The notes beneath the pieces were generated by a model. It was given only the letters and a program-made list of their open reading frames with translations, made no database searches and had not been told where the DNA came from. The position numbers and the translations under genes were made by a program. This document shows positions 10,469 to 34,747 of a stretch of DNA of 40,338 bases, piece by piece; the first letter of the stretch is position 1; each line of letters starts with the position of its first letter. Where the stretch lies: positions 1 to 40,338 of the forward strand of contig PFDK01000010.1 in the NCBI GenBank assembly GCA_002772645.1, given 5' to 3'. The stretch is from Candidatus Pacebacteria bacterium CG10_big_fil_rev_8_21_14_0_10_56_10 (GTDB lineage Bacteria; Patescibacteriota; Microgenomatia; UBA1400; PJMF01).

Positions 10469-10493
10469 TGCCCTTATTTGGAAGGGTATTTTT
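10469..10493 (+). terminator. Candidate intrinsic terminator or attenuator hairpin
   Basis: TGCCCTT-ATTTGG-AAGGGTA stem-loop (7 bp including one G-T) followed by TTTTT, between the GT-C gene and the AAA+ gene. Confidence 0.35.
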
Positions 10494-10507
10494 ATACAAG
10501 AACAGGT

Positions 10508-12325
10508 ATGTCAAAAGCTGAACAATTGACAGGACAACCGCCGCCATCATCCTTAGAGCATGACTGGTTGGAAAGTGAGAATACCCACCGGGAACCACCG
10601 CTGCCAATAAATGGTTTACTATATCCTGTTGATTTGGATGACAGGCGGGTGGTTAAAGCTTTCGAGTCAGTAGTTGATAAAGTGATCTCGGAAGTAGGCG
10701 GACTACCAGCAAAAATTGAAACTGTTCAGGTGGACGACCCTCGCTCTGGCTTCCCGATTCCCAGAATAGTGATTGGTTTTAGGGTAGACGAACTCGATGC
10801 TGAGCAGCTGGCACAACTCGAGGAAGTTGCTGTACGGGTATATGGCGATGATGTCAGAGGAACAAAGACTAGGCAGGGAAAAGCGGCAAAAACTCACTTT
10901 TATCCAAAGCTAGATGCCGGGAGAGGAGAAAAGCCCTCTCTTGATTCCACGATTGGTTGGTACTTGGGAACAGAGACAGGCACTCCAAACAGATCGTATC
11001 TGGGAATTTTTGTGTACCGCCACATTGGTAAAACAGATATTGCCGCTGGTGTAGCGGCCCGCAAGGATGGTGACTGGTTTACTGAAAAAACGTTGACAGA
11101 CAACACTGGTCAGACCTATCAAGGCGGTTCGTATATTATTGAGATAAGAGAATCCGGCAAGTATACCGACCCGAACGGAGGAGTAGTAAACAGTGGTCTC
11201 TACCAAACTGATTTAGCTGAATTGGCCATCTACGTTTCAATGGTGTTGACTGGTAAAAAACTACCTCCGGTTCGTCCCGGGTTAACGTATCGAATTTATC
11301 ACCGGATGAACCAAATCGGATTAGGGCCGGACACTGAACTACCAGGTTTGGAACCGCAACTTCGCTTGGTAGAAAAAACAATGATCTTACCTTTGGCTAG
11401 CCCGGAGCTGACAGAAGCTTTGGGTGGTACGCCTAAATCTATGGGATTAATCGGTCAAGTTGGGACCGGGAAAACTCAAATTATTAAACACTTTTTAAGA
11501 CAAAACAATGGCATCATGATGGTGCCGGTAAGTGCTTATGATCTTGAAACAGAGCTACATAAAGCTATGGAGCGGAGGAGGATTCTACCCAGGGTGCGTG
11601 ACATAGCTGTCAAAGTTGAGAAACCCGTGGTGTTGGTCATAGAGGACCTAGAGTTTTTAGCCAACTCTGATAATGAAGCCAGCAATTTACTCCTGAATGA
11701 ATTGGCTGGAATTCACAACAGCGGTTACCGAGTGCTATGGACTACGAACCATCTAGAAAAAATTAATCCCCAATTACTAGAACCTGAAAGATTGGGAGGC
11801 GGACTGGTATTCTGCGGCCTGCCGACTGCGGCAGCACGAAAGTTAATCTTGGATCAACACCTAGTCGTGGCGAGCAGAACCAAAGAACTGCCGTTATTTA
11901 ACCAGGTAACGATTGGTGGTACATCCATTTCTTCTTCAGAAGCAAGGGACAAATTACTCCAAGCTCTGGCAGAGCTAACGGAGGGTTTCACTCCCCGGTT
12001 TTTAAAAGACATTGTAGTTGAGGCAATTGGTAATTTTATGCTTCGAATTTCTCTAGAAAAATGTCGTTTGGATGGTTTGACTGAGTTAGATTTAGAAGGT
12101 CAAGGTTTTAACGTAGGAGACTGGGACGAAGCACTTCAAAAAGTTCGTCGGTCTTACGATGTTGAAAGTCGTATCCGTGAAGACGAACGCTTAAGAAAAC
12201 TTACCCTGCCTGGGAGTGGAGGAAGTAGGAGCAAACTAGGATTTCCTCAAACAGCTGAAGGAAATGACGATGACGGGTCAACATTGGCAAGTCAGCTGCT
12301 GCGTGTTGCAGCTTCAGTTGACTAA
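10508..12325 (+). CDS. AAA+ ATPase domain protein with N-terminal region of unknown function
   Basis: Walker A GLIGQVGTGKTQ; Walker B VVLVIEDLEFL; second-region-of-homology-like TTNHLEKINPQLLEPERLGGGLVFCGLPTAAARKLIL. ATG at 10508 preferred over track start 10478. Confidence 0.85.
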   Translation: MSKAEQLTGQPPPSSLEHDWLESENTHREPPLPINGLLYPVDLDDRRVVKAFESVVDKVISEVGGLPAKIETVQVDDPRSGFPIPRIVIGFRVDELDAEQLAQLEEVAVRVYGDDVRGTKTRQGKAAKTHFYPKLDAGRGEKPSLDSTIGWYLGTETGTPNRSYLGIFVYRHIGKTDIAAGVAARKDGDWFTEKTLTDNTGQTYQGGSYIIEIRESGKYTDPNGGVVNSGLYQTDLAELAIYVSMVLTGKKLPPVRPGLTYRIYHRMNQIGLGPDTELPGLEPQLRLVEKTMILPLASPELTEALGGTPKSMGLIGQVGTGKTQIIKHFLRQNNGIMMVPVSAYDLETELHKAMERRRILPRVRDIAVKVEKPVVLVIEDLEFLANSDNEASNLLLNELAGIHNSGYRVLWTTNHLEKINPQLLEPERLGGGLVFCGLPTAAARKLILDQHLVVASRTKELPLFNQVTIGGTSISSSEARDKLLQALAELTEGFTPRFLKDIVVEAIGNFMLRISLEKCRLDGLTELDLEGQGFNVGDWDEALQKVRRSYDVESRIREDERLRKLTLPGSGGSRSKLGFPQTAEGNDDDGSTLASQLLRVAASVD

Positions 12326-19966: not shown

Positions 19967-20690
19967 ACGCGTATCGGTAGTCATCCCGGTCTTTAACGAG
20001 GCGGCCACTATCAGCCAGGTGATCCACAGCGTCAAAACCTCGCCTGTCAAGGGTATCGAACTGATCGTGGTCGACGACGGCTCAACCGACGGCACCCGCT
20101 CTATCCTGCGTCGGCAGCGACGATTGATCGATGTGCTGGTCCTTCAACCTTTCAACAAAGGCAAGGGTTCGGCAGTCAAAACAGGGGTGGCCCGGGCCCG
20201 AGGAGAGGTGGTTATCATTCAGGATGCCGATCTGGAGTACGATCCCCAGGAGTATCCCAGGCTGGTCAACCCTATCTTGAGCGGCCGAGCCGACGCGGTG
20301 TACGGCTCGCGCTTTATCGGTGGTGATCCTCACCGAGTAGTCTACTTTAGTCACTTCGTGGGCAATAAGCTGCTCACCTTGCTATCGAACATCTTTACTG
20401 GACTGAACATGTCTGACATGGAGACTGGGTACAAAGCGTTCCGGCGTCAGTTAGTCCAGTCGGTGCAGTTGGATGAACCGGGATTCGGTTTCGAACCAGA
20501 AGTAACGACTAAAGTGGCGGCCAGCGGGGCGCGAATCTACGAGGTGGGCATTTCTTATCATGGCAGGACCTATCAGGAAGGTAAAAAAATTGGGCCGGCA
20601 GATTTTTTCAAAGCAGTGTGGGTAGTAATCCGCTGTGGCAGTCAAGTATGGTGGCAGAGACTGTTGTCCGCCCCGAAAGGAGCGCAGTGA
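19926..20690 (+). CDS. Glycosyltransferase family 2, DPM1-like
   Basis: SVVIPVFNEAATISQVI, ELIVVDDGSTDGTRSIL, NKGKGSAVKTGVARA, IIQDADLEYDPQEYPRLV, GSRFIGG. Confidence 0.92.
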   Translation: MTAVPNRTPRKRRKRVSVVIPVFNEAATISQVIHSVKTSPVKGIELIVVDDGSTDGTRSILRRQRRLIDVLVLQPFNKGKGSAVKTGVARARGEVVIIQDADLEYDPQEYPRLVNPILSGRADAVYGSRFIGGDPHRVVYFSHFVGNKLLTLLSNIFTGLNMSDMETGYKAFRRQLVQSVQLDEPGFGFEPEVTTKVAASGARIYEVGISYHGRTYQEGKKIGPADFFKAVWVVIRCGSQVWWQRLLSAPKGAQ

Positions 20691-21652
20691 CAACTACTAG
20701 TTTTGAGTACTATGGCTTGCGGTGCTACTTCGAGTCAAGCGATTCGCTGATGAACGAACTGGTGGCAGTCAAGTGGTCTGGTTTTAACCCAGACCGCACT
20801 CATGTCTTTGAGCAGACCCAGCTGCAGATTTTGTTCGGCGGTGACTGGCCTGACACCAGTCATCATCTGAGGCTGAGCGCCACTACTTGGACGACTGCTG
20901 AGCAGATAATTGTTGATCACGTTTACCTGGGTTCGCTCACCAGGGTGAAGATTACTTTAGCGGGCGACACTCTGGAGAGCATCCAGCTAGTGACCCAACC
21001 ATCGATGATGTTCCGGGCCGCCTCAGCATTCACTAAAAACCAGCTTCGCCGGCAGCTTTACCAAATGTTGCTCAAGTTGTACGTGGAGCAGACGCTGTTG
21101 TGGTACTTATCGTGGCGGCACAACCTGTTGTGCCTTCACGCCGCCGCCATTGAGAAAAACGGCCAAGTGGTAGTGCTGGCCGGTTTAAATGGGGTAGGTA
21201 AGACCAGCTTGGCGCTCAGCTTGGTGGCGAAAGGTTATCGATTATTCGCCGACAACTATCTGTTGATGGATGCTCACCGGGCTTTTTTGGCCCCGGACAC
21301 TGTTCGGCTTGAGGAAGACCAGGCTGCCGCTTTGCCTGGTCATGTTTCCGAAATAGCGTCATTTGGCTTCGGTAAAACCTACCTCGAGACATCGAGCTGG
21401 AGCGACCAGCGCTCCCTGCCGGTTGGCCTAGTAGCGTTGTTGATCAGAGGATCGAGCTGGGACCGTCAACCACGGTCGGCTCGTGAGATCATCAAAACAG
21501 TACAGCACCTGCAGCGTGTCCACGGAGAGGCGGTCGAGCTGACCGCCTTGTCCCAGCTGAGATTGGCGGCGACCAGTCTCAAGCTCCCCCAGACAGAGTA
21601 CGCGCTGGTCACGGTGGGGCCGCTGTCGCAACTGCCGGATGATTTACTATGA
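20687..21652 (+). CDS. HPr-kinase-like P-loop protein, paralogue 1
   Basis: LCLHAAAIEKNGQVVVLAGLNGVGKTSLALSLVAKGYRLFADNYLLMDA resembles the HprK His/P-loop/Asp layout. GTG at 20687 preceded by GAAAGGAG (20675-20682); track start 20618 rejected. Confidence 0.75.
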   Translation: MTTTSFEYYGLRCYFESSDSLMNELVAVKWSGFNPDRTHVFEQTQLQILFGGDWPDTSHHLRLSATTWTTAEQIIVDHVYLGSLTRVKITLAGDTLESIQLVTQPSMMFRAASAFTKNQLRRQLYQMLLKLYVEQTLLWYLSWRHNLLCLHAAAIEKNGQVVVLAGLNGVGKTSLALSLVAKGYRLFADNYLLMDAHRAFLAPDTVRLEEDQAAALPGHVSEIASFGFGKTYLETSSWSDQRSLPVGLVALLIRGSSWDRQPRSAREIIKTVQHLQRVHGEAVELTALSQLRLAATSLKLPQTEYALVTVGPLSQLPDDLL

Positions 21653-22248
21653 ACGTCCAGCTTGATTTCCCCTTTGTCAGGCTCAAGTTTTCTGACGCCG
21701 ACGATCGGCACAGGCGGTTTCTAGACAGTACTTTTTTCAAGCTGGACCAGCAGGGCCCGGCCGGCCGGCAACCACTGGCCGCTATTAACATCCAGGTGAG
21801 GTTCCGGCGAGTGGTTAGCGGCCGAGCTGACGCCACCACTAACAACCAAGCTGCCCCGGGCCCGAAAGGTTTTCAGTTGGAAGACGCTGTCCGGTTCCAT
21901 CACCGGCGGATGTGGGTGGCTGACACCCGTGGTTGTTGGGCGGAACTGCCGCTGGGCAGACTGAGTGAGCGGCCCAGTCATTGTTGGTTGGAAGTTGAAG
22001 CCGAGTTTGATCTGTACACCCTGCTGACGCAGGTCCTCGAGCCGCTGATGGCGGTGATGCTGGCCGGCCAAGGCGTAGCAATGGTCCATGCCAGCGCGGT
22101 GGCCAAACAAAGCTCGGCCATGGTCTATCCAGCTTGGCGACACACCGGCAAGACTCGACTGATGTTGGAGCTCACCAGCCAGGGGTTACTCACTGATGGC
22201 GGACGACTACTGTTTGCTGGCTGGCCGGCAAGTGTACTCGTACCCTAA
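21649..22248 (+). CDS. HPr-kinase-like P-loop protein, paralogue 2, N-terminal part (frameshifted)
   Basis: VAMVHASAVAKQSSAMVYPAWRHTGKTRLMLELTSQG, then unrelated LLTDGGRLLFAGWPASVLVP after the GGGG run at 22182-22185; ATGA overlap with paralogue 1. Confidence 0.65.
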   Translation: MNVQLDFPFVRLKFSDADDRHRRFLDSTFFKLDQQGPAGRQPLAAINIQVRFRRVVSGRADATTNNQAAPGPKGFQLEDAVRFHHRRMWVADTRGCWAELPLGRLSERPSHCWLEVEAEFDLYTLLTQVLEPLMAVMLAGQGVAMVHASAVAKQSSAMVYPAWRHTGKTRLMLELTSQGLLTDGGRLLFAGWPASVLVP

Positions 22249-22756
22249 GGCGATCAATCTTTTCTCGTACAACTTGCGTCAACACCCCTGGCTTAAGCAG
22301 CAGTTATCGGTACTTGATCAGGCCCGGACCAGCACTGCCATGTCGGCAACTACCGGTCTGCAACTGTTAAGCCGGAAACTACCTGGTGGGGCCCACAAAG
22401 TTGCCGCCAGGCTTGCAGAGCTATCAGAAGTGGCCAGCAACTTCAGCCTGCTGCCCAGTCAGCTGGGCATCACCACCACCGCTCAGGCAAGCATTGACCA
22501 GGTAGTGGCGCTCATCCCGGGCAGCGACAGCCGGCGCTGTCGGCTGACTGCCGAGCAGCTGGCCGAGATAGCTTATCAAACCATCCGCTACGAACACACT
22601 CGGTGGTGGAACTGGTACCGGATGTACCGTTTCTACCGGCCTGATGCCACACCTGGGAGTTTAGAGATGTTTGGGGAACGCTACCGCGGCCTGTTGGCCA
22701 AGCTGTCGGTGCCGATCAGCCGCCACACAGTGGCTGGTCAAAGTACCGACCGGTAA
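22196..22756 (+). CDS. HPr-kinase-like P-loop protein, paralogue 2, C-terminal part (+1 frame)
   Basis: Frame read upstream of ATG gives GYSLMADDYCLLAGRQVYSYPKAINLF, the expected continuation of the kinase-like domain. Confidence 0.65.
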   Translation: MADDYCLLAGRQVYSYPKAINLFSYNLRQHPWLKQQLSVLDQARTSTAMSATTGLQLLSRKLPGGAHKVAARLAELSEVASNFSLLPSQLGITTTAQASIDQVVALIPGSDSRRCRLTAEQLAEIAYQTIRYEHTRWWNWYRMYRFYRPDATPGSLEMFGERYRGLLAKLSVPISRHTVAGQSTDR

Positions 22757-22757
22757 G

Positions 22758-23501
22758 CTAAAAACTTTTGTTTGGCAGACGATGGTACTGCTTGAAGATC
22801 TGGGCCGGCGGGCCGGCGGCCACCAGCTGACCATCTACCAACAGCAACGAGCGGTCACAGAAACGCTCTACCGAGCGCTGGTCGTGGCTGACAAAAACGG
22901 TGGTAACTTGCCCGTCCTGCCTGATCTTCTCAAGCCGATCAAGCGATTTTTGCTGGAAATAATCGTCGCCGACCGCCAGTACCTCGTCGATCAGCAGAAT
23001 ATCAGCCGAGGTGTGGACAGCTATCGAGAAGCCCAGCCGCATGAACATGCCGGTGGAGTAGCGCTTGACCGGCTGGTACATATAGTCGTGCAGCTCGGAA
23101 AAATCGACGATCTGTGTGACTTTGGCTTCAATTTCCCGTCTGGACATACCCAAAATTGCCCCGTTGAGAAAGATGTTCTCGAAGCCGTTGAGCTCGTGGT
23201 GGAAGCCGGCGGTCAGCTCGATCAAGGGCGCGATCCGGCCCGTCACTTCCAAACTGCCTTGGGTGGGATAAGTCACGCCGGCGATCAGTTTGAGAGTAGT
23301 TGACTTGCCGGCGCCGTTCCTGCCGACGATGCCCACCGACTCTCCCTGATTAATCTCAAAAGATACATCCTTAAGCGAGGCCTGGGGGACAGCCCAGGGC
23401 TTTAGTCTGAGCAGTTGAGGAATGACGTCCTTGAGGGTGCGCTCCTGCTGGACCGGGTAAATCTTGGTAACTTGGGAAAACTTAGTGACGACGGGCTTCA
23501 T
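22758..23501 (-). CDS. Polysaccharide ABC transporter ATP-binding protein (TagH/KpsT/Wzt-like)
   Basis: Walker A GIVGRNGAGKSTTLKLIAGV, RYSTGMFMRLGFSIAVHTSADILLIDEVLAVGD, FVSHDQRSVERFC; short (247 aa). Confidence 0.93.
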   Translation of the reverse strand: MKPVVTKFSQVTKIYPVQQERTLKDVIPQLLRLKPWAVPQASLKDVSFEINQGESVGIVGRNGAGKSTTLKLIAGVTYPTQGSLEVTGRIAPLIELTAGFHHELNGFENIFLNGAILGMSRREIEAKVTQIVDFSELHDYMYQPVKRYSTGMFMRLGFSIAVHTSADILLIDEVLAVGDDYFQQKSLDRLEKIRQDGQVTTVFVSHDQRSVERFCDRSLLLVDGQLVAAGPPAQIFKQYHRLPNKSF

Positions 23502-23513
23502 GGTAGTGTTGGG

Positions 23514-24299
23514 TTAAACTATATCGGCAAAGTAACGTTCAGAGCGTTTGAACAGTACAAACCCACCCAGGAAAACGATTATCGACACGCCCGCCGACCA
23601 ACCAATGATATTTGTTTCAAAAGGTTGGTTGAACAAAGCGGACCGGTAGCCCTCCAGGATACCTACTAAGGGATTGAGCTTGTAGTACCACAAAAACTGG
23701 GGGGGGACCATCGAGACGGGGTAAACCACTGGGCTCATGTATAACCACAACAGCAGCAACAGATTAATTAAGTACTGGCTGTCGCGGTAAAACAAGTTGG
23801 CCGCGGCACCGATTAGCGAGATACCAACCGTCAGTAGCAGCTGAATAACCAGCAGTGGCAGTATCAGCCAGCTGGTGGCGGCCAGTTTCACCCCAAAAAA
23901 CATCAGCAGGACGGCAAAGATCACCCACGAAAAGAGCAAGTCGATCAGCTTGGAGCCGACCGCCGCGTAGGGTATCACCTCACGGGGGAACTGGACTTTT
24001 TTAAGCAGGGCGGCGCTGTTGACCAAACTGTTGGTGGCCGCCATCACTGAGTTCTGCATAAAGATCCAAGGCAGCAGGCCAGCGAACAAAAACACCGGAT
24101 AGGGAATGTCGGTCGGAAAGCGAAACACTATCGAAAACACAAAAGTGTACACTAGGATTTGGCTGAGCGGGTTAAGGATGATCCAGGCGTAACCAATGAT
24201 TGACTGTTTGTAACGGGCCTTTATGTCCCGCTGAGTGAGCTGCCGCCACAAGTACCGGTACTCTGTCAGCGGCAGCAGCAGTTGGTGTATAAACAGCAT
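23514..24299 (-). CDS. Polysaccharide ABC transporter permease (TagG/Wzm-like)
   Basis: YRYLWRQLTQRDIKARYKQSIIGYAWIILNPLSQILVYTFVFS; six-TM-type hydrophobic pattern; adjacent to ATPase. Confidence 0.93.
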   Translation of the reverse strand: MLFIHQLLLPLTEYRYLWRQLTQRDIKARYKQSIIGYAWIILNPLSQILVYTFVFSIVFRFPTDIPYPVFLFAGLLPWIFMQNSVMAATNSLVNSAALLKKVQFPREVIPYAAVGSKLIDLLFSWVIFAVLLMFFGVKLAATSWLILPLLVIQLLLTVGISLIGAAANLFYRDSQYLINLLLLLWLYMSPVVYPVSMVPPQFLWYYKLNPLVGILEGYRSALFNQPFETNIIGWSAGVSIIVFLGGFVLFKRSERYFADIV

Positions 24300-26179: not shown

Positions 26180-27609
26180 TGTCCACCTTACCGTCTGTTT
26201 CTGTTATTATCGTTAACTATAACGGTCAACACCTGTTGCCTGGTTGTTTAGATTCGCTGCGCAAGGTCAGGTACCCCGGCTCCAAGTTGGAAGTGGTGGT
26301 GGTCGATAACGACTCTCACGACGACTCAGTCAGTTTTATCCGTCAACACTACCCGGAAGTGGTGCTGATACCAAGTGAAAGCAATCTTGGATTTGCTGGC
26401 GGTAACAACTTAGGCCTCGAGCACGCCGGCGGGGAGTGTGTCGCCCTGCTCAACTCAGACACTCAGGTTGACCCAGAGTGGCTGCGCCAACTGGTAGCCG
26501 CTTCCCAACCAGACCAAGTAGGGGTGGTCACCTCCAAACTGTACTATCACCTGCCGTACTTAGAACTGGTTATTAGCTCTCAAACCATTCACAAGGCAGA
26601 CCTTGACTACTCTGACGACTTTCGGCCCATTGGGGTGCTGATGGAGCCGGTCAACTGTCCGACAGCCGAGCTATCAGAGCAAGTTTGGTACCTGAGTGGT
26701 TTTTACGCACCCCGACAAGGCAACCTGACCACTCGCTGGACTAACGGCCAAGCCCGGGTGTTGGTGCCGTTTGAACAAACGTCCCGAGGTAAAAACGTCT
26801 ACCAGCTCACTTTTCACGGCTACCCGTTGGGCCACCCTCTGGAGAATCGCGTCAAGGTTTGGCTCGGTGACCAACTGTTGATCGACGACACATTGACCAG
26901 TAACGAAGTCAAGCAGTACCGGTTGGTGATTGGCAAACGCCAAGCCAAATCACACCTGCAGTGGTTAGTACAGAACGCCGGTAACATCGCTTTTAAGAAC
27001 GGCTACGGTCGCGACCGAGGCAGTGTGGTGTACCGCGAAGCCGAGCATGCCCTAGAGTTTTACGACTTTGATACTGAGTACTATCAACGACCACGCTCGT
27101 TGGTGGCTATGTGCGGCGCTAGCTGCCTGATCAAACGGCGGGTCATCGACGAGGTAGGGTTTTTCGACGAGTCGTACTTTATGTACTACGAGGACATGGA
27201 CTTGAGCTTTCGGATCTGGAAGCAAGGCTGGGATATCGTCTACTGCCCAAGCTCGGTGGTGTACCACGCCCACCGAGCAACAACCAGCCAGCGCAATGTC
27301 AAGTTTTTTATTGAGCTGGTGGAGCGCAACCATCTTCAGTTTACCATTAACCACTATCCGCTGAAGATAGTGATGATTCAGCTGGTTTTGTTCACTACCA
27401 AGTTGTGCTACTCCTGGCTGGCAGCTAGAGTGATGAGGGCGGTAGGTTACTTTGGACGGTACTTCGAACTGCACAGCAACAAAGCGGAAGCTCGGACCGC
27501 GGCGGCAACTTTCTTGCTTGGCCGAGCTCCGGAGTTGTTGCGGCAGCGCCAACGGCTGCTCGCCAACCAGACTAGAGGTTTTGAAGAGATGGTGGGGATG
27601 CTGTACTGA
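26179..27609 (+). CDS. Glycosyltransferase family 2 with large internal insertion
   Basis: SVSVIIVNYNGQHLL, VVVDNDSHDDSV, NLGFAGGNNLGLEHA, LLNSDTQVDPEWL, then CGASCLIKRRVIDEVGFFDESYFMYYEDMDLSFRIWKQGW about 190 residues later. Confidence 0.88.
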   Translation: MSTLPSVSVIIVNYNGQHLLPGCLDSLRKVRYPGSKLEVVVVDNDSHDDSVSFIRQHYPEVVLIPSESNLGFAGGNNLGLEHAGGECVALLNSDTQVDPEWLRQLVAASQPDQVGVVTSKLYYHLPYLELVISSQTIHKADLDYSDDFRPIGVLMEPVNCPTAELSEQVWYLSGFYAPRQGNLTTRWTNGQARVLVPFEQTSRGKNVYQLTFHGYPLGHPLENRVKVWLGDQLLIDDTLTSNEVKQYRLVIGKRQAKSHLQWLVQNAGNIAFKNGYGRDRGSVVYREAEHALEFYDFDTEYYQRPRSLVAMCGASCLIKRRVIDEVGFFDESYFMYYEDMDLSFRIWKQGWDIVYCPSSVVYHAHRATTSQRNVKFFIELVERNHLQFTINHYPLKIVMIQLVLFTTKLCYSWLAARVMRAVGYFGRYFELHSNKAEARTAAATFLLGRAPELLRQRQRLLANQTRGFEEMVGMLY

Positions 27610-29153
27610 TGGCCACTACTACCAAGCCAAAAACCGTCGCTATCTACGACCGCTGGTTGTCTTCTTTGGGAGGGGGAGAGCAGGTGGTGCTGGCTTATGC
27701 CCAGGTACTGCGTGACCTGGGGTACAACGTTAACTTGCTCACCCATCGCCACGTCAACCGCCATCAGCTAGAGAAAAAAATGGGCGTCTCGCTCAAACAG
27801 ATCAAGATTGTCTCCATGCCGGAGAGCGACCCCAGTTTATTATCAGGAGTCTCCGAGCGGTACGACATCTTTATCAACGCCTCACACTTAGATTACTTTG
27901 CCAACCGCTCTCGGCAGGGGCTGATCTCTGTGTTTTTTCCCGGCATCATCAAGATGACTATCTACGAGTACCTAAAACGGGCCTTGTTTATCCCGTCGTT
28001 TAAGAAAGCATTTATTTACCCGACCAAGTTCGAAGGTTTCTCCCACGACCAGTACCTGCACGGCCGGATCCACAAATGGTTGGGCAAGCGGTCAACGATT
28101 TCCTTCAACACTTATATCGATAAAGTTGGGTTTCAGCTTTACTTTCGCTTCATGACGCTGGCGGTGATCGACGGTATCGAGTTTTTTCGAGGTAGTCAGC
28201 GCGTTGAGCCACTGGAGCGAAGTGTTAACCAAAAAAATAACGTGGTTACCTATCGGTTCAGCCAGCTAGACAAAGGGGGGCTGACGATCGTCCTGCCGAG
28301 TGATCGCTATAGCCAGGACATCGCCATGATCTCGTTTACTATCCCTAGTGTCAGGTATCTGCTGTTTAACGTCTTTAAACGGTTCTTCCCTCGCTGGGAA
28401 ATGCGGCTCCATGGGGGACCGGGCATTACCAAGCGCGCCGACTTAGAGTCGTATCAAACCATCGTCACCATCTCCAAGTTCTGTAGAAAGTGGATCAACC
28501 GCTACTGGGGCCTGTCCAGCCGAGTGCTGTACCCACCAGTCAACACCAGCAAGTTTTTTCACTCCAAACCGAAGAAAAACATCATTATTCATGTGGGCCG
28601 GTTTTTCGTAACTGGTCACTCTAAGAAACAGCTGGAGCTGGTCAAGGCTTTCAAGAAGCTGGTCACCCACCACAATGTCAGCAACTGGCAACTGCATTTT
28701 GTGGGCAGCGTGGAACTCGGCAAACTGCACCAGCAGTACTTCCGTCAGGTCAGGAGCGAGGCCCACGGTTTCCCCGTCAAGTTTCATACCCGCGCCTCGT
28801 TTCAGGAACTGCGCAACTTGTTTGCTTCGGCCAAGATTTACTGGCACGCTACTGGCCTGGACGAAAACGAGGAAAAGCGGCCGATCGCTTTCGAGCACTT
28901 CGGCATCACCACCGTAGAGGCGATGGCGTCGGGTTGCGTGCCGGTAGTGATCAACGCCGGCGGCCAACGAGAAATCGTCACCAAAGATAGCGGCTTTACT
29001 TGGAACACCCGCGCCGAGCTGATTAACTACACCCTGAGGCTGATCAAAAGTCCGCAGTTGCTCAAGCAGTACCAACGCCAAGCGGTGCGGCGCAGCCGCT
29101 ACTTCGACATCGACAACTTCAAGAAACGCTTTACCATCATCATTAAAGGCTGA
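27609..29153 (+). CDS. Glycosyltransferase family 4 with large internal insertion
   Basis: GGGEQVVLAYAQVLRDLGYNV; IIHVGRFFVTGHSKKQLELVKAF; EHFGITTVEAMASGCVPVVINAGGQREIV; homologous to the 2960..4051 GT4. Confidence 0.87.
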   Translation: MATTTKPKTVAIYDRWLSSLGGGEQVVLAYAQVLRDLGYNVNLLTHRHVNRHQLEKKMGVSLKQIKIVSMPESDPSLLSGVSERYDIFINASHLDYFANRSRQGLISVFFPGIIKMTIYEYLKRALFIPSFKKAFIYPTKFEGFSHDQYLHGRIHKWLGKRSTISFNTYIDKVGFQLYFRFMTLAVIDGIEFFRGSQRVEPLERSVNQKNNVVTYRFSQLDKGGLTIVLPSDRYSQDIAMISFTIPSVRYLLFNVFKRFFPRWEMRLHGGPGITKRADLESYQTIVTISKFCRKWINRYWGLSSRVLYPPVNTSKFFHSKPKKNIIIHVGRFFVTGHSKKQLELVKAFKKLVTHHNVSNWQLHFVGSVELGKLHQQYFRQVRSEAHGFPVKFHTRASFQELRNLFASAKIYWHATGLDENEEKRPIAFEHFGITTVEAMASGCVPVVINAGGQREIVTKDSGFTWNTRAELINYTLRLIKSPQLLKQYQRQAVRRSRYFDIDNFKKRFTIIIKG

Positions 29154-29171: not shown

Positions 29172-32100
29172 ATGCGGCGCTTGCTTAGCTGGATCGACGA
29201 CCGGGGACTGTTAGTGTGGGCGGTGGCGCTGGTGGCGTTCATCCCTCTTTTTCCTAAGATCCCGCTAGCCGATGTCATTCCCGGTTACCTGGTCAGGATC
29301 AGACTAGAAGACATACTGGTCCTGCTGGCCGGACTATGGTGGCTTGTTCAGGCCGGGCGGGGGAGACTGCGGTGGTTAAACTTAGTAGTGTTGGGCTTTA
29401 GCCTGTTCATAGTGGTCAGCGGACTGTCGCTGTTGTCGGCTGTGTTCTTGCTGGGCTGGGTGCCCCTAGAACCTCTTCATTTGTTCAAAAGCGCTCTGAT
29501 GCTGGTCCGCCACTTGGAGTACTTTAGCTTGTTCGTGATCATGTTTAGTGCGGTCCGGTCCAAACGTGACGTCAAAGTGGTGTTGGTGGTCCTGGCGTTG
29601 ACTATTGTGGCGGCCACGGTCTACGGATTTGGCCAAAAACAACTTGGTTGGCCGCTGTACTCCACCATGAACCGCGAGTTTAGCAAGGGAGTGGCGCTGC
29701 AGCTGTCTGAACACGCCCGGGTCCAGTCCACCTTTGCCGGGCCTTATGACCTATCAGCTTTCTTGGTGATAACCCTGCCGCTACTGACAGGCTTGCCGCT
29801 ACTGCTGGGCTTGGCTTTGCGGTTAAAAAATAAAGTCGTCCAGCTGGGACTGCTGCTGGTCCACTTGGCCGGACTGTGGCTGATGGCTGTCGGCGCTTCC
29901 AAGTCGGCAGTGGTAGCTTACGGCTTGGCAATGGTAGTGGTGACGCTGTTGTCTGCCAGCCGTCTTAGACGACGGTGGGTAAACTGGGCGGTAGCAGCAG
30001 TAGTAGTAGTGGTGGTGCTGACCACTTTGAGCGCGATGGTGGTCGCGTTTGGTGGCGATGCCTCCGGGCGACTAGTCAGTATCGTGGCCCACCAGCCACA
30101 CGTTCAGCGACTGCTGCCGGCCTCATTACTGGCGCGCGTCCCAACTACTTCAGACCGGCCTGAGGACGTCTACGTGGAGATGCCAGACATTGTAGAAGTC
30201 ACTACCGTGACCGACACCGGCCAGCCAGTCACCAGGCTTGTCGAACGGCAGCGCGTCTATAGCCAAAACGCTCTCAAGTACGGTCTGTCGGCAGGCATTC
30301 GGTTGGACGAACTCTGGCCTCGAGCAGTCAGCGGGCTGGTCCGAAACCCATTCTTGGGTAGCGGCTTTGGGACTCTCAACAAAGACGGTCCGGTCCACTT
30401 CACAGAAGCGGACAGCACTGACAACCAATACCTGCGGACGCTGGGAGAAACGGGCCTGTTGGGCTTTGCGACGTTTTTCGGCACAGTGCTGCTAACAGTC
30501 CGCTATGCTTGGCTGGCCCATCGGTCCCGAGACCCGTTAGTGGCCGGCTTGTCGATCGGATTTATCGGCGCGACAGTGGGCTTGCTGGCTAACGCCTTGT
30601 ACATCGACGTCTTAGTGGCGTCTAAAGTAGCGTTTACTTTTTGGGCGATGGCCGGGCTAGTGGTCAAGACATACTTCTTAGAACACCCTCAGTCAGCTCG
30701 GCGCGACACACGGCGCTGGTGGTCGCTGGTGGGCAGGTGGCTGGACCGACACTGGCCTCTGGTAGCAGCGGTCCTTATCTGGATGGTTGCCACCCACGCC
30801 GTGCCGTTCAGCCAGCGGGGTGTTATTACTAACCTGGGAGCCGCCCCCCACCAAACTGAACACCTGACTAGCGCTCGTTGCTGGCTGGAGCGCGGTAGCT
30901 GGCAGCGGTGTCGCTCCACCGTATCGATCGGCCAGGTTGGTTTATCTGAGGGGGATACCGCTGGCTTAGGCTTACCGGCCCCCAGCCCCATCTACACGAG
31001 TTGGCTGTTGCCTTTCCTGGTAGCTTTTCAGTTTCCCCAAGGATACTACTACGCCAACCTGGTACTAAGTGCATTTAGTTTGCTCCTGATGTACGCGCTG
31101 GCAGTCAGACTGTTAAATCAGCGTTGGCAGCGAATGACGGCCCTGCTAGTGTGGTTGGCTGGACTGAGCTGGATTGCCCTGCCGTTAGTACCTTCGGCCG
31201 AGAACCTGCGGCTGGTACTGGTGATGACCGCCGGCTACCTAGCGGTTAAGTTCGGGCCGCGGCCTGCCGACAACACTCGACGATGGATCCTGTGGACAGT
31301 GTTGATACTGGCGGTCATCACTCGATTCGGCGTTGGCCCGACCTCGGTGGTCTTGCTCCTTCCCTGGCTGTCTTTACTGGCAGCCGCCGTTGCCCAACCT
31401 GTTCTCATGTCAGCCCGAGTGCTGGCTGGCCGACGGCTGGCAGCCGCTGGCCGGCTTCCCTGGTCCTGGCTGGCGGTAGCGGCAACCGGCGTTGGGGCGG
31501 CGGTGATGATTACCCTGGTACCAGGCCCTCAGCTATGGCGGGTCATCAAGCTTAAGTTCCAGCCGGAACGTAATTTTTGGCAAAAGTCTGTCCTCGACCA
31601 GTTGGTGGGAGACATTTCCGCCGCCAGCCAGGACCGGCCGGCGACGCTGATCACCACCCTGGACCCATTTTTCGTCGACTTTTACCTATCGGAGCCCATT
31701 CAACTCTTGCCGTTAGCTACCGACCAGTTCCATTTTCAGCAAGCTCAGCTGGTGTGGGGACCGGAAAACTACAGCGATCTCCCCGAGCTGTACCGCCGGC
31801 AGTTGGCCCAAGGCCGGGCGTTGTTCGTGACCGACTTTAATGACAACCGCTTCCAGCGGCCGGCCGAGTTCGGGCCGCTCACTCGGCAATTTAGCCTGCA
31901 GCTGCTTGAAATTGGTTGTGATGAGCGATGTAGCCTTTACCGACTGTCCCTTCCTCAACCCTACCAACCCAGCCCGCCCGAGACGATTACTACCGCTCAG
32001 CTTGATCCAGCCAAGTTTGGTGAGGAGCTGTCGTTCATAGTCTACAGCCACCGTTTCACACCGCCCTTGGCCGGCGAGCGCAACAATACCTTGTTGTTTA

Positions 32101-32987
32101 CCAAAAAGCTGGCCGAGCTGAGCGAGCTTGGGCCCGACCTGGTGATGCTGATGGGCGATGCCCTGCACATCGCCGACGGCTCTCAACAAAAGTTGTTTTT
32201 CGAACAGATTGAGCCGACCGTTTCTTACCCGATCGTCTACACTCCCGGCAACTACGACTCGGTCGCTACCAAGTTGTTCGGGCCAGAGTTTCAGAGCTTT
32301 CGGATTGGCCCATCGGTTTTTATCACCCTGAATGGTGGTCCCAACGGGGAGTTGGGTGCCGCCCAAACTCAGTTTGCTGTCAACCAAGTGCTGGAGCTGT
32401 CTGCCGATGACACCGTTGTCAATGTGTTCGTGTTTACCCACCGCTTGAGCTGGCTGGGCCGTGACCAGCTACTCGAGCCGCTGACAGCGATCACTAATCA
32501 GCGACAGCTAACCAGCGGCGACGGGTTTGTCCAACGCCAGCTCTTTTCCCGGCTGGAAGAGCTGACGGGCAAAAGCGTCTACGTGTTTTCAGGTGATATT
32601 AGTCCTGGAAAACAACCTAGCTTGGTTTATCATCGTCCACAGGACAGCGCGGTTACCTACCTGGCTAGCGCCGTCAACTCGCGACCAAGTGACGTTTTCT
32701 TGCAGGTGTCGGTGCGTGGAGACCAGGTGACAGTCCTGCCTATCAGCTCGGACTCTCAACAGTTGGGCAATTTGGAACAATACTCTGATAAATTCTGGCA
32801 GAGCAAACTGGGGCCTGATCAAGTTCAGCCCGGTACGCCGGATAAAGTGGCAACCGGCTTGCTGTCAAGCTTACTGCCGGCGATGGGAGTGGCAGCCGGC
32901 TGGTCAATTGGCTGGTGGTTGTTGAAGTCAGGCTGGCTCGGGCGGACAACCGCGGCGCTTAAAAAGGGACTGCTGGCCGGGGTGTAA
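29172..32987 (+). CDS. Giant membrane protein: O-antigen-ligase-like / GT-C-like / metallophosphoesterase-like fusion
   Basis: N-terminal Wzy_C-like NPFLGSGFGTLNKDGPVHFTEADSTDNQYLRTLGETGLLGFATF; central GT-C-like TM region; C-terminal calcineurin-like fold pattern MLMGDALH, YTPGNYDS, FTHR. Confidence 0.75.
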   Translation: MRRLLSWIDDRGLLVWAVALVAFIPLFPKIPLADVIPGYLVRIRLEDILVLLAGLWWLVQAGRGRLRWLNLVVLGFSLFIVVSGLSLLSAVFLLGWVPLEPLHLFKSALMLVRHLEYFSLFVIMFSAVRSKRDVKVVLVVLALTIVAATVYGFGQKQLGWPLYSTMNREFSKGVALQLSEHARVQSTFAGPYDLSAFLVITLPLLTGLPLLLGLALRLKNKVVQLGLLLVHLAGLWLMAVGASKSAVVAYGLAMVVVTLLSASRLRRRWVNWAVAAVVVVVVLTTLSAMVVAFGGDASGRLVSIVAHQPHVQRLLPASLLARVPTTSDRPEDVYVEMPDIVEVTTVTDTGQPVTRLVERQRVYSQNALKYGLSAGIRLDELWPRAVSGLVRNPFLGSGFGTLNKDGPVHFTEADSTDNQYLRTLGETGLLGFATFFGTVLLTVRYAWLAHRSRDPLVAGLSIGFIGATVGLLANALYIDVLVASKVAFTFWAMAGLVVKTYFLEHPQSARRDTRRWWSLVGRWLDRHWPLVAAVLIWMVATHAVPFSQRGVITNLGAAPHQTEHLTSARCWLERGSWQRCRSTVSIGQVGLSEGDTAGLGLPAPSPIYTSWLLPFLVAFQFPQGYYYANLVLSAFSLLLMYALAVRLLNQRWQRMTALLVWLAGLSWIALPLVPSAENLRLVLVMTAGYLAVKFGPRPADNTRRWILWTVLILAVITRFGVGPTSVVLLLPWLSLLAAAVAQPVLMSARVLAGRRLAAAGRLPWSWLAVAATGVGAAVMITLVPGPQLWRVIKLKFQPERNFWQKSVLDQLVGDISAASQDRPATLITTLDPFFVDFYLSEPIQLLPLATDQFHFQQAQLVWGPENYSDLPELYRRQLAQGRALFVTDFNDNRFQRPAEFGPLTRQFSLQLLEIGCDERCSLYRLSLPQPYQPSPPETITTAQLDPAKFGEELSFIVYSHRFTPPLAGERNNTLLFTKKLAELSELGPDLVMLMGDALHIADGSQQKLFFEQIEPTVSYPIVYTPGNYDSVATKLFGPEFQSFRIGPSVFITLNGGPNGELGAAQTQFAVNQVLELSADDTVVNVFVFTHRLSWLGRDQLLEPLTAITNQRQLTSGDGFVQRQLFSRLEELTGKSVYVFSGDISPGKQPSLVYHRPQDSAVTYLASAVNSRPSDVFLQVSVRGDQVTVLPISSDSQQLGNLEQYSDKFWQSKLGPDQVQPGTPDKVATGLLSSLLPAMGVAAGWSIGWWLLKSGWLGRTTAALKKGLLAGV

Positions 32988-32992
32988 CAAAC

Positions 32993-34747
32993 ATGCCAGA
33001 CATAAGACAACCAACCAGTTCCTTAATTGCCGCCGGTCGCGGCTGGGCAGCCAACCACTGGCTGTGGCTAGTCATGTTGGTGGTGTTCGGTTTACTTCTG
33101 GCCCGTGACCCGTTCTCCACCAGGACCTTGATCGGCAACCTCGAACCTTACCCCGACACTTTCCATTACTTGGTCCCGCCCAAGTGCTGGCTGGAAGGCA
33201 GAGGCTGGCGGCTGTGTAGGCCCGGAGTGGAAGGGTTGGTGACCGACGTGCCACCACTGTACTCGATCACACTACTGCCGGTGTTACTGACTACCTCTGA
33301 TCCGCGCGTATTTTACTTCGTCAATGTCTTGCTGGCAGTGGTGGCTGCCTGGCTTTTTTACGACATCATCAACCGGCTGACTGCTAACCGGCTGATCACC
33401 GCCATCGCCCTGGGTTTATACGTGACTAACTTCTTTACTTCGTGGCTGCCTCAACTGGCTATGGCTGAAAACTTGCTCCTGCCGCTGTTGCTGTTCAACA
33501 TCTGGCTATTGATACTTCCCTGGCGGCGTTGGTCCCCGGCCCTGGCTGGGCTGGCGGTGGCCGCTCTCCATGGGACTAAGTTTGCCGCTTTGCCCAGTAT
33601 GGTGGTGTTATTTGTGGCTTTTATTGCCAAGATTTGGTTTGAGCCTCAGTACGATCAGGACAGTCAGGACCACCGTCAGGCCGTCTCCAAGCTGGTCCTC
33701 CGGGCGCGGGCCCGCTTCACACCTGGGCTGGAGTTATTCTTAGCAGCAACCGTAGTTTTTTTGGCGCTAGGCGGGTGGAAATCGGTACTGTCACTGGGAA
33801 TTATTCAAAACCTGGTAGCGGACGGTCCTACGCCCGGCAGCAGCGCCAGCTCGGCCGTCCCTTGGTACTCACCACAATACTTTAGCACCAACATCACTCA
33901 CTACTGGCGATCGCTAAGCGGCTTGCCCGCCAGGTTTTTGTGGGACATGACCCCGATCGTGCCCCGTTGGGTAGCACTGAGCGGCTGGCTGGGGTTGGGG
34001 CTGACCGCTGTCAAGTCGCGGTATCGGCTGGTGGCGGCTGTTTTAATAGCGACCATGCTGGTTCAAGCCGGCGTCCTTTCTTTGTACTTTAGCAGCGACA
34101 GCCGTTACATCCTGGTAGCCATCCCCAGCTTATTGATCGGCTCAGCCTTGTTCGCCTGGTGGTGGTGGCAGCGGCACCAGTCATTCGCCTGGAGAGCAGG
34201 AGTAGCGATAGTACTGCTGGCTGTCGGTGCCGGTTACGCCTTGAGCAACGCCGGCCGGTGGCGACAACAACTGGCCGTTAACTTTAAGTACGCCGAGACG
34301 CCGTGGTGGCTGGTGGCCTCACAACTGTTGGACCAAACTATGGCTGAACAGCCCGCCAATCGCCGCCCCATCGTGATCACCGCCATGGCACCCTACCTGA
34401 TAGACTTGTACGGCCGAGGCGGCTACGACTTACTGCCGCTCTATCAGCAACAAGACTTTCGCGGTCACAAACCGGCAGTTTGGGGGAGCCAGCACGACTA
34501 CACCGATCTGGAGGCACTTTATAGGTCACTGTTGGTCAGCAACCGGCCCGTCTACTTGGCGTCGTACGGACTGGGCAATCAGCCGGAGCTCAAGGCGGCC
34601 TTTGCTTCGATCCAGTCAAACTTTAGTCTGGAGTTGGTCAGCACAGGCTGTCATGACCTGTGCAATTTGTACCGGTTGTCGCTGCCAACCGACGGTGGCG
34701 CTCAAAGCGAGGAACGAACTGAAGATCAGGCTGAGGCGGCCCGATAG
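32993..34747 (+). CDS. GT-C-like membrane glycosyltransferase
   Basis: Polytopic; PPKCWLEGRGWRLCRPG loop and C-terminal soluble tail GCHDLCNLYRLSLP, shared with the central part of the preceding gene. Confidence 0.72.
   Translation: MPDIRQPTSSLIAAGRGWAANHWLWLVMLVVFGLLLARDPFSTRTLIGNLEPYPDTFHYLVPPKCWLEGRGWRLCRPGVEGLVTDVPPLYSITLLPVLLTTSDPRVFYFVNVLLAVVAAWLFYDIINRLTANRLITAIALGLYVTNFFTSWLPQLAMAENLLLPLLLFNIWLLILPWRRWSPALAGLAVAALHGTKFAALPSMVVLFVAFIAKIWFEPQYDQDSQDHRQAVSKLVLRARARFTPGLELFLAATVVFLALGGWKSVLSLGIIQNLVADGPTPGSSASSAVPWYSPQYFSTNITHYWRSLSGLPARFLWDMTPIVPRWVALSGWLGLGLTAVKSRYRLVAAVLIATMLVQAGVLSLYFSSDSRYILVAIPSLLIGSALFAWWWWQRHQSFAWRAGVAIVLLAVGAGYALSNAGRWRQQLAVNFKYAETPWWLVASQLLDQTMAEQPANRRPIVITAMAPYLIDLYGRGGYDLLPLYQQQDFRGHKPAVWGSQHDYTDLEALYRSLLVSNRPVYLASYGLGNQPELKAAFASIQSNFSLELVSTGCHDLCNLYRLSLPTDGGAQSEERTEDQAEAAR

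Follow-up and report, generated by a model that had tools for sequence, protein, structure and literature searches.

Ligases of the Wzy_C/WaaL superfamily are among the closest described relatives of the protein analysed here, and a catalytic His has been proposed for the WaaL and PglS enzymes (PMC12800693). How surface glycans are built and attached in the ultra-small Patescibacteria is largely unknown, despite the long gene clusters that these bacteria carry for it. The GT-C glycosyltransferases and the calcineurin-like metallophosphoesterases also enter the comparison. Inactivated calcineurin-like domains serve non-catalytically in eukaryotic DNA polymerase B subunits and in Vps29.

The window, the whole stretch of 40,338 nt that was analysed, comes from a patescibacterial draft genome of 0.95 Mb in 29 contigs, 93.8% complete. 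Within a long glycan-assembly cluster it contains a fusion ORF that the first-pass annotation had described as one uninterrupted 1271-aa frame, running from a Wzy_C/O-antigen-ligase-like N-terminus (to about residue 500) through a GT-C-like membrane part to a C-terminal calcineurin-like region. The frame and the order of its parts were borne out by Pfam profiles, homology to the downstream neighbour and predicted fold. That order had been called unusual, and a full-text literature search, with most subscription papers outside its reach, likewise found no published description of this fusion or of the second ligase fusion treated below. The features considered are as follows.

27609..29153, plus strand: upstream neighbour, a GT4-type glycosyltransferase (PF00534), separated from the fusion ORF by an 18-base gap
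29172..32987, plus strand: whole fusion ORF, 1271 aa, ATG start, internal stops absent; full three-part homologues exist
29172..30701, plus strand: module 1, residues 1–510, a polytopic Wzy_C/O-antigen-ligase-like domain orthologous to stand-alone ligases of about 540 aa
29868..30479, plus strand: PF04932 (Wzy_C) match, residues 233–436, by Pfam profile
30738..31961, plus strand: module 2, residues 523–930, a shortened GT-C-like part homologous at both ends to the 584-aa neighbour, whose D55 is here a His
31569..31961, plus strand: soluble C-terminal GT-C subdomain, residues 800–930, with Cys916 and Cys920 invariant
31974..32756, plus strand: module 3, residues 935–1195, a calcineurin-like fold with a degenerate metal site, from Pfam, predicted fold and motif columns
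32856..32936, plus strand: C-terminal extension, residues 1229–1255, a possible weak TM segment not present in other fusions
32993..34747, plus strand: downstream neighbour P0002, a stand-alone GT-C glycosyltransferase of 584 aa beginning 5 bases after the fusion, EPYPD motif intact, related to module 2

Other features of the window were noted in passing. An ABC-2 exporter pair on the minus strand (22758-24299; ATPase PF00005 and permease PF01061), oriented opposite to most of the cluster, suggests ABC-dependent glycan export. An AAA ATPase gene within the cluster (10478-12325, plus strand) has a GC content of 0.46–0.49 against about 0.56 and is possibly a later arrival. Consecutive ORFs in the cluster occupy 20618-22756 (plus strand); the first matches PF07475 (HPr-kinase-like) only weakly, below the cut-off, and the second and third have no Pfam match.

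Domain composition of the fusion protein

Module 1 is by far the best conserved of the three modules. The fusion protein matches PF04932 with an E-value of 4.1e-9 (36.8 bits; cut-off 31.7), as expected from the ligase-like N-terminus first proposed, and stand-alone orthologues of about 540 residues in other genomes of the order, with 42–46% identity, end where module 2 starts. The motif STDNxYLRxLGETG, or a close variant, is present in all members of the ligase subfamily that were compared; as far as a reading of this motif establishes the correspondence, its Asp (STDN) appears to replace the proposed WaaL/PglS catalytic His throughout the subfamily. That the ligase module is catalytic we infer from its family.

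Related ligases were seen elsewhere. A second paralogue lies downstream of the window in the same genome (L045:2989-4902, plus strand), and further large Wzy_C frames of that genome, L047 and L048 (804 and 965 aa), have tails that look TPR-like instead of modules 2 and 3. An Omnitrophota bin (L127) and an entry titled TM6 (L107) carry this Microgenomates-type ligase, by mis-binning, mislabelling or transfer.

Module 2 is related to P0002 over its N-terminal half (residues 523–678, E 3e-13) and again over its C-terminal soluble part (residues 805–928, E 9e-18). A Pfam scan of P0002 gave no match above any cut-off. Its predicted structure, built from a shallow alignment and with a mean pLDDT of 64.8, matches ALG12, DPY19, ArnT, ALG9, STT3 and AftB (best E 7e-5), and 13 of its 13 best PDB matches are GT-C-fold enzymes or complexes containing one. 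The GT-C-like character claimed for the middle part is thus upheld through this homology.

The calcineurin-like domain was not detected when the whole protein was scanned with Pfam and became visible only when cut out: residues 935–1195 alone match PF00149 (Metallophos) with an E-value of 1.2e-4 and a score of 23.1 bits, above the Pfam cut-off of 21.5. An NCBIfam search gave nothing useful, and a PDB sequence search with the module 3 profile returned weak matches only (GpdQ, E 0.58; SbcD/Mre11, about 0.7), which made a comparison of folds necessary. In the model of residues 505–1271, also from a shallow alignment (mean pLDDT 64.5, soluble blocks mostly 70–90), the best Foldseek matches of module 3 in the PDB were Rv0805 (E 2e-7), purple acid phosphatases and GpdQ, with E-values of 2e-7 to 2e-5 and a probability of 1.00. 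Two proteins in the same list, Vps29 and the Pol alpha B subunit, have this fold in an inactivated form; a viral structure library gave generic calcineurin-like matches only. Structure prediction agrees with the profile match in giving the C-terminal region a calcineurin-like fold, as the first-pass annotation had supposed.

A TM segment had also been placed after this region and was not confirmed: residues 1229–1255, approximately, fall below the hydropathy threshold, are modelled with a pLDDT under 50 and have no counterpart in the other fusions compared. The closest non-fused relative of module 3 (E 3.9e-27) is a stand-alone calcineurin-like protein of 368 aa, L163:1294-2400 (minus strand), with an apparent signal sequence and, at the place of the fusion's extension, a clear C-terminal TM segment. 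This protein connects module 3 to canonical stand-alone phosphoesterases. A phmmer search with L163 as query gave no matches, and no other phosphoesterase was found in the genome of the window as a donor of module 3.

Active-site residues of modules 2 and 3

The GT-C motif [ED]P[YF]PD is kept in 15 of 15 stand-alone relatives, a count that excludes the unrelated ORFs L065_1848, L071_1854 and L072_3. Its Asp is kept in 3 of 11 fusions (G013 and the sister pair G001/G021) and gone in the other 8. The window's module 2 has a His at this conserved acidic position of the first outer loop and thus lacks the residue expected of a catalytic GT-C. Most fusions are also without the AEN motif and without 100–150 residues of the GT-C membrane part. 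The G013 fusion, which is spread over two contigs (L010 and L044) that probably belong to one gene, keeps EPYPDTFHY and a GT-C part of near full length, and is an apparent intermediate in GT-C decay. Two Cys pairs, Cys570/Cys580 and Cys916/Cys920, are invariant in the fusions.

Recognisable motifs of module 3 are YSHR (958–961), GD (995–996), PGNYD (1025–1029), FTHR (1088–1091) and SGDIS (1140–1144). A complete two-metal site (DxH, GDxxD, GNHD/E, H, GHxH) occurs in no fusion: the DxH Asp is missing in all, GHxH is complete in none, and the GD Asp alone is nearly constant. In the window the DxH Asp is a Ser and both GHxH His are gone, leaving four of the seven usual metal ligands (His960, Asp996, Asn1027 and His1090), with which its module 3 may have weak or altered activity. 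Since every fusion lacks part of the metal-binding site, module 3 is best called a pseudo-phosphoesterase. L163 has an intact GNHD and GDTGG instead of GHxH, and the alteration of the metal site may therefore predate the fusion.

Recurrence, origin and constraint

The soluble part of modules 2 and 3, fused or as a piece at a contig end, occurs in 12 of 42 genomes of the family and 8 of 22 genera, counts taken from drafts in which some fusion copies are cut by contig ends. The fusion was found in none of 46 other genomes of the order, and no further fusion turned up when sampling was widened to 374 genomes of the class and 380 of the phylum, matches outside the family being stand-alone or weak and partial. 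Frames with all three parts are present in the window, G015/L099, G021/L087, G006, G054/L092, G055/L079 and L090, and also in G020 and G011, where the contig border truncates the 5′ end. Seemingly split homologues in G001, G013 and G018 were rejected as such, every break being a contig end, and homologues are accordingly not always divided into separate genes. A 29-contig draft could have produced a chimeric frame by misassembly; since the same architecture recurs in other genera and independent genomes, including contigs of 1.17 Mb (L079) and 378 kb (L099), the fusion is neither chance nor misassembly, and we give an assembly artefact practically no weight.

A quick ML tree built from 82 ligase domains groups the fused ligases into a single 12-row clade (SH-aLRT 99); the sole tail-less row of that clade, L042, is truncated where its contig ends. 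On the simplest reading of this tree the fusion would have arisen once. Wherever both are seen, the stand-alone GT-C and the fusion share strand and contig, which makes the stand-alone GT-C a natural candidate partner; it is 5 bases downstream in the window, overlaps upstream in L092 and G013, and is about 4–5 kb away in L079 and L090 and 11 kb away in G015.

Four within-clade comparisons gave proportions of nonsynonymous differences of 0.10–0.37 against 0.68–0.81 for synonymous differences in all three modules, with w at 0.04–0.22 where dS was finite. As dS is near saturation in most of these comparisons, purifying selection is to be read qualitatively, as evidence of constraint and not of its strength. 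In one close pair the appended modules are 46–58% identical, against 73% for the ligase.

Members of the same ligase subfamily are fused to a different, intact GT-C in Gottesmanbacteria and related bins (L112, L113, L115, L116, L118-L120, L122, L123, L134-L136, L144, L146, L147 and L152). These proteins are mostly 1030–1060 aa long, and the GT-C, with the motif DWHSWRQADT and PMT_2 matches of up to E 9e-17, follows after residue 500 or so. Judged by its separate clade in the ligase tree, this fusion is of independent origin, and it suggests that ligase and GT-C activities act side by side in the pathway.

Role of the appended modules

In our view modules 2 and 3 are pseudo-enzymes on the extracytoplasmic side that the ligase has retained for docking or regulation. 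The loss of catalytic residues combined with purifying selection makes a non-catalytic extracytoplasmic arm their most likely role, and retention of the three-part protein across at least 8 genera indicates that the dead parts probably took on a new, non-catalytic job. We assign a probability of about 0.55 to the full proposal, a catalytic ligase with a non-catalytic extracytoplasmic arm composed of modules 2 and 3. A location of both modules outside the membrane would be consistent with GT-C topology, the two invariant Cys pairs and the signal/TM anchor of L163. A ligase of the Wzy_C/WaaL kind would have gained a GT-C copy from the same locus and a secreted calcineurin-like domain, and would have done so only once, in an ancestor shared by some of the family. 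The ligase, the only part expected to be catalytic, would take a glycan off its undecaprenyl-diphosphate carrier and attach it to an acceptor on the outside of the membrane, as membership of its family suggests. The shortened GT-C membrane bundle would hold the arm in place and set its orientation. Binding of the acceptor, the glycan or a partner enzyme, for example the stand-alone GT-C, would fall to the GT-C soluble subdomain and the pseudo-phosphoesterase. The more specific history, in which the ligase recruited two whole enzymes, both active sites died and the remains were reused in one lineage of Patescibacteria as a fixed extracytoplasmic arm for recognising acceptor or partner, has in our estimate slightly less than an even chance.

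Other roles can be weighed against the same residues. The first-pass annotation had suggested that polymer transfer is coupled to processing of the lipid-phosphate carrier, giving a three-activity enzyme whose calcineurin-like domain dephosphorylates the carrier after transfer. Such coupling would suit the fold, the probably extracytoplasmic location and the four ligands kept in the window, and is not supported by the rest of the site: the Asp of the first motif, a Ser in the window, is missing in all fusions, none has the five-motif set, and the GT-C Asp is lost as well in 8 of 11. With no full set of metal ligands in any fusion and the GT-C Asp lost, an active carrier phosphoesterase is very unlikely; known calcineurin-like phosphatases of lipid precursors, of the LpxH type, moreover act in the cytoplasm. 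Were module 2 still to transfer sugar, with the calcineurin part alone as a spacer, the protein would resemble the independent Gottesmanbacteria fusion with its intact GT-C, and the Asp retained by G013 and the G001/G021 pair would be explained; the His of the window, and the absence from most fusions of the AEN motif and of 100–150 membrane residues, make this improbable.

It is also conceivable, if doubtful, that the appended modules are functionless, decaying passengers. They diverge faster than the ligase in the close pair compared, their active sites are lost, their length varies, and among the fusions only that of the window has the last segment. This reading is opposed by an open frame that persists in 8 genera from a single origin, by strong suppression of nonsynonymous change, and by the invariance of the cysteines, GD and fold-forming positions. 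We therefore prefer the ligase with a non-catalytic arm. If the appended parts are indeed binding pseudo-enzymes, the protein would clearly exemplify the serial decay of enzymes into a scaffold, one apparent intermediate of which (G013) is preserved. In joining two further extracytoplasmic enzyme folds to a ligase, the fusion provides a defined, testable target.

Compared with GT-C glycosyltransferases (ArnT, ALG9/ALG12, STT3, AftB; Pfam PMT/PMT_2), P0002 shares the fold, and each end of module 2 is homologous to P0002; module 2 differs in its smaller length, in the loss of the conserved Asp and in following a ligase within one protein. Module 3 shares its fold and residual motifs with calcineurin-like metallophosphoesterases (PF00149; Rv0805, purple acid phosphatase, GpdQ) and differs from them in its incomplete metal site and its attachment to a polytopic ligase. 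DNA polymerase B subunits and Vps29 also retain a calcineurin-like fold without catalysis, as a protein-interaction part; they are cytosolic or nuclear and have no close sequence relation to the fusion, and the comparison is one of function only. The Gottesmanbacteria fusion has in common the ligase subfamily followed by a GT-C module, but belongs to a separate clade, has another GT-C with an intact motif and has no calcineurin-like third module. With the Wzy_C/WaaL superfamily, including the PglL/PglS-type O-oligosaccharyltransferases, the fusion shares the PF04932 match, a polytopic membrane domain and conserved loop motifs; it departs from them in carrying, on our reading of the motif, an Asp where the proposed catalytic His stands, and in adding about 760 residues that make up two further modules.
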